Source of the DNA: Clytia hemisphaerica
Taxonomy: Eukaryota; Cnidaria; Hydrozoa; Leptothecata; Clytiidae
Direction: 5' to 3'
Length of the DNA: 64,000 nucleotides
Assembly: GCA_902728285.1 (NCBI GenBank)
Contig: CACVBU010001102.1
Location: forward strand, 558,001 to 622,000
Part shown: piece after piece, positions 39,501 to 45,500 of the stretch
Layout of the letters: the number at the start of each line of letters is the position of its first letter
How positions within the stretch are numbered: the first letter of the stretch is position 1
Notes under the pieces: model-generated
The model's database searches: none
The model's input: the letters and a program-made list of their open reading frames with translations, nothing else
What the model was told of the DNA's origin: nothing
Made by a program: the position numbers and the translations under genes

Positions 39501-42500
39501 ATCCAACTTTTCATGAAAAGGTTTTATAAGGGTGGATAGGATTTTTTCCGAATAAAATTGCGGAGTTGAGCTTTTTGGGGAGGATCTAATAACGTTAACA
39601 ATATTTTGAAAATGTGTATCATAACTTATCGGGGAAAAAAATGTCGGGGGAAAGTGAAGAAAATTTTGAGGGGGGTGTCGAAATCTTTCCCCGACCAAAT
39701 ATTACCCCGACATTTTATCACCCGACCAAAACATTTACCCGAAATTTTATACCGCAACCAAAATTCAAATCTAATTTCTTTACACCTTTATTTAACGAAA
39801 TTAGTGCTTTAAACGTCGAATTTTCGAGCTAGTGAAGGAAACTATTTCTTTTGGACAGTTTAGTCGGGGAAAAGTGACGAATTTGAAATTTTGGTCGGGG
39901 GAAAGTGACGAAAATGCCTCTAGGTGACGAAATTTTTCCCCGACAAAAAAAAACGAATCAATAAAACACTCTGACATTTTTTCCCCGATAAGGTATCTGC
40001 ATATTGGGTTAAAGAATTTGATCATTGTACCAAAATGTCAATGTAAAAAGCAAAACTTCTGCCTGCTGCTCCATTTACAGCAAGAAACTTTATAGAGAAT
40101 TTAAGTTCCATGCGTATTTAAACGGGACGGCAAATAGTGTGAGTTCGTGATATTTTAAAAATAGGGGGGATGCAATATGAATGGTGGGAGTTCCATCTAC
40201 ATCAAACTTGCTTCTTTACCTCCGGGTTATTTGCTTTTGAGAATGAAAAAGTGATTTCTTTTTCTTCGTTGTGTGCATCTGTTTCCTCTTCGACTAAACA
40301 AGTTTCCAGTTGACTTCTAAAAAGAGTATTTTGTATATTTCTTTCAAGGTCACTTATAATTTTGATATGACTGAGTTCTTTCTAATTCCTATATGGGATA
40401 CATGTCTTTTTAACTTAAAAGGCTAAAAGGTCGAATAAACTTAGTAATCAGGTAGAATTTTTAGCCTGAGACCTGGACATAATTGCCATCAAGCTGAAAA
40501 TTGACACGGATGTTCTCCAGGGTATACTGAGTTACCAAAAATGTGAGTGCAAAAAATCTTGCTGGAGAAAAATGTTTCAATCGAAAGTTGGGCTCCGTCA
40601 CATTTTAGATATTGTCATCTTGCATCAGTGTGCAAAATTTCATGAAAAAAATATAAAGTACAACTCGAGAAATTCAAGAAAGATCGTTTTTCCGGCGATA
40701 TTCGGCTGTTACAGCGATTTTTAGAAGGTTCCGGTTTCAACAATCAGTTTTATTGACAATTGAACCATGCTTGATGGTGGGCATTGTTATCAATGATGTT
40801 TTTGTGTGAAAAAGCAAAGAAATGTAAAAAAAGTCCAATGAAAATTTGCACAAACGGCGATTTCCGGCATATTTCAGGCATTTTCGGCCCGAAAATATTT
40901 TTCCTCAAAAATCTGACTCGGGCATATTTTGGGCATTGCTATTACGCATCTTTGTGCAAACTAACTCTTTTCGGCCGGAAAAGAATTTTTCTCGAAAAAA
41001 TAATCGGGCTCCGTCACATTTTGGGCATGACCATTTTGCATCTTTGTGCCAAAAATCAGGAAAAACTAAAGAGCCCATCTCGAGAAAAGTTGGTAACGAA
41101 CGAACGAACGAACGAACATCAGTTAATTTTTATAGGACCTCTACCCCACCGGGATAGGTCCAAAAAGTAACTAATTTTGACCATCCAAACGAATTATTTT
41201 ATCGACAATCAAAGAAATCGATTTGTCCATCCGACACTTTTTGAATTTTGTAACAGATCCTTTGTTCTAGAAAAAATGGTTTTAGGAAATTCATGTTTTA
41301 TTGGGTGGGTCGAGAGACTTCGCAAGTATTTCTCATTTGGGAAGCTAAATTTTTCTAGGATCTGAACAGTAGTTTGCTTTATGAAAGTCTTTGCCCGCCC
41401 CTAGAAGAGAGACGATGGATGGACATGAATGGAGAAGAGCAACTGTCAGGTTAGATCAGTACAGAATGGCCAAAACGAAGTAACTGTGCCATATAATTAT
41501 TTATAGGGCAATTCTTTTGCTCTTGTATAGCACACCATGTCATGTGATTAGCTTGCTTATCGCTGAACGACTTTGAAAATGCTTCAACACAGTAGGTGGC
41601 GGAAATCTGTAAGAATCAATGTGAATCAATACCATCTATAATTATCGCTGATAATACGTTTATTGAAATAGGATTAATATAATTTCTGAATCTCGCAGGA
41701 TATAAAACCATGAAAACCTTAATTAATTGAATTAAGAAGTAGCAGATAAAGCAACAACTAATTAGAAATTTCTTCTACCAATTTTAGTTAGTTAAGATCA
41801 ACTTGAAATTGGTTACATATCAACAAAATGGTCATGCTTGTAGTATGGTGTGCTTATATCCTATCTGTTGTGACTGCATTGTCACCTTTTTGTCCTATTG
41901 GCAACAAAGTTGATGAACCTCGTGGAAATGAGACAGGCACTATAATGCGTTTGTACGAATGTACTGGACAAAAAGAAACTTATTTTCGCCCTCGAAATCA
42001 AATATGCGGTGAAATGGTAAAGGAAACCGAGATTGCTAGAGATGTCGAAGTAGATATTGGATATGATAAGAATGGATTTTCTATGAAAAGTATCTTCGTT
42101 GGTAACCCACTTTCAGAAGGGGTTTGGGACGGCAGTACATGCTTTTCATGGCGTAAAAGTGTCATTGACCGAGACGGAGTAGAAAGAAGTAGCACTTGTG
42201 AAACACTTTGCAGATTTGCTGAAATTTTATACATCACCTATAAAGAAATCACTCGATGTAGCTTTGAAGAAGGATGCTCAGTATTGGAATACAGTATCAA
42301 GGTTGTATTAGACCCACAAGGTACAGCCAAAAATGAACTTAAAAACTGTTATCTTTACGGTGGAAACTCTGGTGATGTAGTAGCTGACAAAATATGGATA
42401 GATGTTGACAAATGCAACCAGAAAGCACACCGAAAGGAATCCTGTGATCGCATCAAAACAAACGTGTTTCTTCAACGAGGTCAAATCATCAACATGAACC

Positions 42501-45500
42501 AAGATGTCAATAATCATCCATTCATGGTAAAATTCTATGGTAGCAGACTCTGCACCGCACTTCGACAGTACAATCGAGTCACTAAAAGCTATCGATGTTC
42601 TGTAATGTGTTACAATGTTTTTGACAGCGATGACGAAGAAAGCCGAGGTATCGAGTATGCTGAATATGAGCGAACAATGGAGTGTTCATCGGATGGTGGA
42701 TGTGTCGGATATCCAAGCAAATATTTCAAAATCACTGCTAAAAATGATACCAGCTCTAAAGGAAACGATAACAACTCTAAAGGAAACGATAACAACTCTA
42801 AAGGAAACGATGGTCTAGTCATCAAACCGAGTCTTATATCAGCTATAATTGTTTTCATGGCCTCCGTAGCTGTTTTGAAAATTCTTATTTAAAAAGAATA
42901 GTACCCGTGCAAAGAAACACTGAAACGTCAAAAACTTCGAAAAATCTTTATATATAATTTGTTTTAAGAACATTTTGAAAATGTTTTTTTCTTTAGTAGC
43001 ACCAAACTCTGTATCTGTTTATGCATAAAGATGAGGCGTCTGTCATCATCACACATTAATTAATCCTGAACAATTTATAAGTAGACACTTTTATATTGTC
43101 TATATTCTGCCTATTACTTGCAATTAAGTTCATGACAACATATATGTGTTTAGTTAATTTTCTTGTTAATTCTTTTTCGCTATGATGAAAACATTAACTG
43201 GCTTATGGTATGTATGGATCTACGAATTTCCCTAAAAGTGTAAATCAATATTGATATTAATCATGCTTCTCTGGCTCTCCTTTAAGCAGATAGTTTTACC
43301 TTCCTGAAAAAGCTTCATGTTACAATCGCAAGAAGTGTAGGCTGCTGTTGAATCACGAGCGAAGCCAGAACCCCCCCCCCTTCTCAGGTTGTAAAATGTT
43401 AACGACTTTGGTTACGTGAGCTATTATGTAACAACAGGAAACCCATGTCCCATTTTTACGAGTCTCATCAGTGTACACCGTTTCTACTATTTGAAAGCAA
43501 ATATCTACTAATCTAGATAGAAGTAAGGCAAATTTAACGATACTTCTTTTATTTACCCTCTTATCAGAACCTTTTTATCACCTTAAAATGACCTTCCTCT
43601 ATGTTTTCCTGTTCAGCCTTCCTTATGACAATTTTTATGATTTTGTTATTTTGAAATATGAAAGTTAACCCCATTAACCCCCACTGGGATTATATAATCA
43701 AGTAATTAAGTTTTATTTTTAGGAGTAGGGACCTAGTATATATAGAGGTCAATTTTCTTTTATAAGTAGGTTAGTGAAGTCAAATATTGGAACTTCAACG
43801 ATTATTTTCATAATGTAAGTGTAACTTTTCTTTTGTAACTCTAGGAGTTGGTTATGTCAAAGATTATTTTTATAGGGAACTGACTTTGTCTAAGTTCATT
43901 CTGTACTCGTCTCCCCTTTTGTTTTGTTTACTCTATCTGTTCATGAAATTAAGTAAGTTCAGATGGAGGGCTCGGAAATCCCATTACACCAACTATTGAA
44001 CCAAGTTTTGTTTTGAATGTAGATTCTTTGTGCTAGACTGTTTCGACACTATCAATGTTTTAAAATTTCTTTTCCTTGAGTTTGAATTTCTTAAAATAAT
44101 GTTTTCAAGATTATTTCGACCAATTTATCTAAAACCCCTTTTCGGATTTTCTCTGTTCTGATGCAAATTAGATTTTATGAAGGTAGGACAGGTAGGGCCT
44201 CGACACTGCTTATATTCTTCTAACGAAATTCTTTTAGAGGCTGCTTAATAAACGGTAGATCTTCTGTACGAAAATGTGCCGCTACTCGCTGATGTTTGAC
44301 TAATAATATTTTTTAGCTGGCGAGGTGGTTGAAAAAGTAGAAGCGTGTTTTCAAAGGCATTATAGTTGGCTATAGATTACATTTACGTAGAAACAATGTT
44401 TTTCATTGGTTTTTCATCATTATTATTGACTTGATTTTCAGGGAAAAGTGTAACCTTTTCCCAACGATATATGATACTTGCATTTATGGATAACCTTTTT
44501 TTTCGAACATTTTTTCCGGTTTTCAACTGTCCGAAAAAGTGGCTTCCCCTGCCCGGATTGATGGGTACCCTATTAAGAACATTTGTGCCAATTTTCAACT
44601 TGATGACAATTTTGTCCAGGTTGTGGTGAAATATAGTTAAATCGACTATTTAATAATTTTCAGTAATAATAAATTAAACTTATCAATTTGAAATCTTCTT
44701 CGTTCTACTTGTTAATGATTACTTTGTTGACCGGGTTCGCCTTATTTTCGTCAAATTAAACTTTTCAAAATTTCTTCATGTAATAGTCAAGGTTACTAAA
44801 ACAAAAGACTTACTGTTCTTTACAAACTGTTACAGCAAGCTGGCAAAAAGGGTCTTTCAATCGGACTGGCTTCAAATACTTCAATAAACTGAGATTGCTT
44901 GATGAACTACTCTCTTTCACTAACTCCTCATCCAGCATATCTTCCAATAACATATCTAGAAGTTAACAAATACTACAGTGTGTCCCAAAAAAGCCGACAA
45001 ATTTTTTGTTAAAGTAAAATCCTCAAAACTCATTATCTAGAATAATTGAAATAACATTACAATTATAATGAAATCGGCTATACCCGTTTAAAAGTCTTTT
45101 ATATAGTTTTTTGAGAGCTTTCGAATGGTATACACAATGTTGTCTGAAAATAAGTTTGAAATTTTCAAAAATTTTCGACCTTAGGGTTTTGCCTGGGGAA
45201 AAAAGAAATTGCCCAAAAAAGGGATGTTCCACCAGTGGGATTTTAGGGGATTTTTTCCTGAGGCATAAGCGTCCTATAGAGAAGGTCTGGAGAAAGTTTC
45301 AGCTAGATATTATTTTTTCCTACAAACAGCCTGTACCTTTCTAACACGACCACACTAAGATTGAAATATCAAGTCATAGAATTTGTCATAAATTATGAGG
45401 ATTTTACTTTGAATATAAATAAGTCCAATTTTTTCGGGAAACACTGTATATAAAGGATTTGCTTTCAAACTAACCCGGTCGGTATACAATAGCATACCGC

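Follow-up and report, generated by a model that had tools for sequence, protein, structure and literature searches.

What kind of protein does the long intronless reading frame at 41828..42892 encode, and does its position inside another gene carry any meaning? The frame lies in a window of 64,000 nucleotides of the Clytia hemisphaerica genome (contig CACVBU010001102.1, positions 558,001 to 622,000), and an earlier sequence-only reading had described it as a gene for a duplicated, cysteine-patterned surface protein of no recognised family, nested in a meiotic gene and possibly coupled to germline expression. We conclude with moderate confidence that its product is a lineage-restricted, probably glycosylphosphatidylinositol (GPI)-anchored ectodomain that serves in binding or adhesion. 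The earlier interpretation is thus partly upheld: the duplication, the likely secretion to the surface and the lack of a recognised family were borne out, but the germline link was not.

The frame itself is as described, with 354 amino acids and no interruption. The stop-free stretch around it spans 361 amino acids, longer than any found in 40 first-order Markov sequences of 64 kb, in which the longest stop-free frame had a mean of 153 and a maximum of 232 amino acids. Its GC content is 0.388, higher than the 0.361 and 0.321 of the kilobase on either side, and is unequal among the three codon positions (0.455, 0.384 and 0.325), as expected of coding sequence. The frame is very probably a gene. 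The TATAAAA element upstream is weak as evidence of a promoter, because the pattern TATAWAW occurs in the window at a background frequency of 0.44 per 400 bp.

We also searched the same genome (417 Mb in 951 contigs) for paralogs, using the window protein and the proteins found on two other contigs, C517 and C240, as queries. All three queries returned the same set of at least four loci, which comprises the window gene and three further genes at C517:1162189-1163130, C240:623901-624977 and C788:281394-282392. Since the search scores the best candidates only, this number is a lower bound. Each of the four genes encodes two modules of about 130-170 amino acids and a short hydrophobic C-terminus within one open frame, and where the window protein matches its relatives, the identity is about 31-37%. 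When open frames of at least 25 amino acids in the window and in 40 kb around each paralog were scanned with a profile, only these four genes and a partial copy next to the C517 gene passed the inclusion threshold. The paralogs C240 and C788 are under constraint relative to each other: over 340 aligned codons, dN was 0.294 and dS 1.634 by the NG86 method, and 0.271 and 1.039 by the LWL85 method, giving a dN/dS of about 0.18-0.26, which is rough because dS is high. Near the C788 gene there are also three open frames that look alike by eye (C788:263323-264735, 273058-274494 and 277006-277605), and a Pfam scan of one of them gave nothing at E <=0.01.

Next, we examined the internal duplication. 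The order of motifs on which it had been proposed, namely C-x3-C, a Tyr-containing strand and C-x5-C, does recur in both halves of the window protein (residues 124-150 and 257-292). It is rare in shuffled sequences: when the two halves were shuffled 50,000 times, the strict form, with no further Cys and a Tyr between the pairs, appeared in 139 and 213 cases, and a looser form in 585 and 720. When the two halves are aligned, all eight cysteines match up at an identity of 23%. The duplication is marginal in the window protein alone and decisive in the paralogs, whose halves align with local z-scores of 47 (C240), 33 (C788) and 9.4 (C517), none of 1000 shuffles scoring as high in any of the three. 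In blastp comparisons within an eight-sequence database, the two C240 halves matched each other at E 6e-35, module 1 of the window protein was closest to module 1 of C517 (E 1.8e-10), and module 2 was closest to module 2 of C240 (E 1e-24). Eight cysteines are present in seven of the eight family modules, and module 1 of C517 is without the last two. The module-closing spacing is C-x5-C in four modules and C-x4-C in three, with neither Cys in module 1 of C517. Because these two are missing together, it is suggested that the last two cysteines of a module pair with each other.

A signal peptide, a repeat stalk and a GPI-like hydrophobic end had also been proposed. In the window protein, 15-residue Kyte-Doolittle windows above 1.6 begin at residues 1-6, 8, 10 and 11. 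The N-terminus is clearly hydrophobic in the window copy and C240 and less so in C517, the C-terminal region is hydrophobic in all four proteins, and N-glycosylation sequons occur in three of them, with none in C517. These features indicate that the protein is likely to be secreted to the cell surface, and the simplest and most likely reading of its end is a GPI signal. The termini agree with the earlier proposal as far as hydrophobicity is concerned, but a Lys near the end of all four proteins and the final Asp of C788 are atypical. The stalk (SKGNDNN, 2.7 copies) is present in the window protein but absent from all three paralogs, so that it is private to the window copy. We also considered that the anchor may instead be a short C-terminal transmembrane helix, or that the protein may simply be secreted. 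In all four proteins the lysine is fourth or fifth from the C-terminus, a position unusual for a GPI signal. C-terminal hydropathy reaches only modest peaks in C240 and C788, and these proteins end in HG and D, respectively. However, with no more than four residues beyond the Lys there would be hardly any cytoplasmic tail, and the hydrophobic stretch of the window copy comes after small polar residues, as fits a GPI signal. We regard the helix or secreted form as rather unlikely and keep the GPI anchor as the more probable reading.

If the protein is a surface ectodomain, then the question arises of whether its modules belong to a described family. Pfam searches with the whole protein and with the eight modules separately yielded no match above threshold, and those below it were unrelated to one another and confined to one module each; for the modules, matches were listed up to E 10, with filters dropping most of those above 0.1, and the best was at E 0.087. 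An NCBIfam match to an alcohol dehydrogenase family (E 0.001) and the best PHROGs match (E 0.019) were each confined to one module and are ascribed to chance because no second module agrees. Profile searches against the PDB reached E 1 at best with the eight modules and gave no match with the first modules of C240 and C788 only, and the window protein alone matched a lipase at E 0.058 over 46 residues, which is not credible. Thus, no credible match was obtained in Pfam, NCBIfam, PHROGs or PDB sequences, in line with the earlier reading, and searching by separate halves, as it had advised, gave no credible family for any of the eight modules. We recognised no described family in the literature searched, which did not cover most subscription journals, so that a published description may still exist. 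As no library match was obtained, our guess is that the family is restricted to hydrozoans.

As an alternative, the module could belong, in diverged form, to a known beta-sandwich family such as ML (MD-2/NPC2-like), and the protein could bind lipid or glycan. The possible resemblance lies in an early Cys pair, an L-x-K-G strand and a later close Cys pair. However, none of the eight modules matched ML among the Pfam matches listed up to E 10, the best of those matches being unrelated to it, no PDB profile match fell below E 1, and the cysteine count differs. We therefore consider membership of such a family quite improbable. A bolder idea, which we think unlikely though less so than the ML relationship, is that the eight-Cys module is an undescribed, hydrozoan-restricted extracellular domain for cell-cell or gamete recognition, carried by single-exon paralogs scattered over the genome. 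Should the fold prove to be new, the ectodomain types of animal surfaces would increase by one; otherwise, this would be an ordinary small orphan family. The four copies, the internal duplication and the nearly fixed cysteine pattern make the family a tractable case for studying domain origin and binding partners.

Several observations weigh against the adhesion-type ectodomain that we propose. The two halves of the window protein are barely above shuffles, with a local z of 2.8 and 55 of 3000 shuffles scoring as high (gap costs 11/1); the global alignment gave z 1.2 and 403 of 3000 at the same costs, gap costs of 8/1 gave 70 and 125 of 3000, and blastp of the two halves found nothing significant (best E 0.83). 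An hhalign comparison of first with second halves, built from the window and C517 proteins only, gave E 5.5e-4 with a probability of only 30%. The expectation that the halves would align above background was thus clearly borne out in three paralogs but only slightly in the window protein. No usable fold was obtained, the single-sequence model of the window protein having a mean pLDDT of 36. The N-terminus of C517 has no hydropathy window above 1.6, the ends of C240 and C788 are those given above, and the 600 bp that follow the window gene contain neither AATAAA nor ATTAAA. In addition, ahead of the first module of C788 there is neither an in-frame start nor a signal peptide, so that this gene is either damaged or draws on an exon further upstream. 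Directly behind the C517 gene lies a partial, frame-damaged copy of the second module and tail (G000:C517:1163211-1163561), which is 95-98% identical in its two pieces and is a recent DNA-level duplication. Because of these two loci, not every copy of the family is intact.

This decay beside C517 and the missing start of C788, together with the intronless structure, could also mean that the window copy is a functionless retrocopy or relic. However, at only about 31-37% identity to its relatives it retains a full frame, all 16 module cysteines, the signal and the tail, and none of the 40 random sequences held a frame as long. A relic is therefore highly improbable, and we continue to treat the window copy as a functional gene.

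We next considered the position of the gene. The claim that it lies antisense within an intron agrees with a splice-site and phase model, in which in-phase host exons stand on both sides of it (Table). Donors with at least five of eight consensus bases were accepted, with at most six candidates per exon; all modelled exons have AG acceptors and GT donors and their phases chain, the acceptors at 40370 and 38106 having been chosen for phase. When the exon at 40370 is left out, the phases of its neighbours no longer fit. The model supports placing the gene in host intron 44813-40371, on the opposite strand. That the host is a meiotic gene is a claim of lesser strength. SHOC1 is the likely identity, but this depends on one sub-threshold match to PF17825 (E 0.08, 18.4 bits against a cut-off of 25), the only one in the genome, located on the host strand and outside the modelled exon chain. 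Prokaryote controls for that search matched in 0 of 14 cases and hence provide no calibration. Pfam searches with separate host exons and hand-joined frames gave nothing, PF17825 not being listed, and a PDB search with the joined host frame gave no match. One host exon alone matched the endonuclease I-MsoI at E 0.01 over 44 residues. Adjoining a putative host exon, at about 46050-47070, are short-period repeats that are open in several frames on both strands.

Given this position, the gene might be co-regulated with its host and serve germ cells or meiosis, since the intron that holds it belongs to a gene with the sole SHOC1-family match of the genome as its C-terminal motif. However, it lies on the opposite strand with its own, albeit weak, TATA-like element, and its paralogs are on other contigs, where the genome-wide search gave no SHOC1-family match. 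According to PMC8467205, nested genes show transcriptional interference and rapid expression divergence in Drosophila, and their expression divergence in mammals is no different from that of unnested genes; neither result predicts coupling. The proposed germline coupling is therefore unsupported, and we consider it very unlikely.

For the expression, promoter, fold, anchor type and binding function of the window protein, we infer the following. The gene would be a functional member of a small family of intronless genes, which to date is known from this hydrozoan genome only. It would have a promoter of its own and be transcribed in the direction opposite to the host, its intron position most likely being incidental. 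The N-terminal signal may take the protein into the secretory pathway, and the protein may then fold into two disulfide-stabilised, strand-rich modules, derived from an internal duplication that probably predates the family. The hydrophobic C-terminal end would keep it at the outside of the cell, with a GPI anchor as the most likely means, and there it could act as a binding or adhesion ectodomain.

Table. Features of the nested gene and of its putative host, in window positions.
Feature	Position	Strand	Basis or remark
Possible core promoter, TATAAAA	41701..41707	+	127 bp upstream of ATG; weak
Single-exon coding sequence, 354 amino acids + stop	41828..42892	+	uninterrupted frame (41828-42889 + stop)
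Putative signal peptide, residues 1-18	41828..41881	+	Kyte-Doolittle hydropathy; cleavage site placed by eye
Module 1, residues 19-168	41882..42331	+	Cys 22, 45, 60, 105, 124, 128, 144, 150
Module 2, residues 171-305	42338..42742	+	Cys 174, 196, 206, 242, 257, 261, 286, 292; boundary by eye
Stalk, SKGNDNN x 2.7, 21-bp direct repeat	42755..42814	+	read from sequence
Hydrophobic C-terminal end, residues 336-354, GPI-signal-like or tail anchor	42833..42889	+	hydropathy
Host exon, furthest 5' modelled	47152..47418	-	in phase; alternative acceptor at 47438
Host exon, 5' side (host sense) of nested gene	44814..44955	-	AG acceptor, GTAAGT donor
Host exon after nested gene	40220..40370	-	in phase; one of three acceptors listed
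Host exon	38637..38859	-	in phase
Host exon	37932..38106	-	in phase; one of several acceptors listed
C-terminal SHOC1-family motif, PF17825 positions 1422-1448 of 1449	25585..25662	-	sole genome-wide match, sub-threshold

Elsewhere in the window, an open frame at 3410-3943 (minus strand) contains a ZP-N domain (E 2.5e-7 in Pfam) and belongs to a surface protein of the zona pellucida type, and another at 14458-14766 (minus strand) contains a thiamine-pyrophosphate enzyme C-terminal domain (E 3e-16). Together with neighbouring minus-strand frames, the latter looks like what we take to be a 2-hydroxyacyl-CoA lyase-type gene. A 958-amino-acid frame at 61125-63998 (plus strand), which reaches the window edge, belongs to a non-LTR retrotransposon with endonuclease and reverse transcriptase. 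In the same genome, the mitochondrial contig C900 (14.6 kb) carries, in one orientation, cox2-atp8-atp6-cox3-nad2-nad5-nad6-nad3-nad4L-nad1-nad4-cob-cox1; cox1, which is cut by the contig end, was found by family, and the other genes were named by eye from their translations. In cox1, TGA stands at four of the eight Trp codons read and AGA at conserved Arg sites, and the only tRNA found, in a search with the bacterial code, has the anticodon tca. The gene order agrees with that of hydrozoan mitochondrial transcripts in PMC4655093, and order and code together most likely point to hydroidolinan Hydrozoa. A search for GFP as a marker of the organism had no match, its controls being equally silent.

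Finally, we compared the family with known systems. As GPI-anchored tandem-module ectodomains, Ly6/uPAR proteins have a signal peptide, repeated disulfide-rich modules and a hydrophobic C-terminal end and thereby resemble it, the signal peptide being putative here; however, they differ from the modules of about 130-170 amino acids found here in module length and Cys spacing, and no Ly6/uPAR match was among those listed by Pfam up to E 10 for the whole protein and the eight modules. The ML domain of NPC2/MD-2-like proteins is similar in its length of about 130 residues and in close Cys pairs in a similar order, but it has six cysteines as compared with eight here, where two modules stand in tandem. 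PMC4169000 reports 37 novel cnidarian-restricted sequences and 13 cnidarian-restricted Clytia genes with a predicted signal peptide. Because orphan secreted genes have thus already been described in Clytia, a further family of this kind is less surprising. Like those genes, the present family combines a predicted or apparent signal peptide with the absence of relatives in the libraries searched here, whereas it is set apart from them by its internal duplication, its eight-Cys pattern and its probable anchoring at the cell surface.

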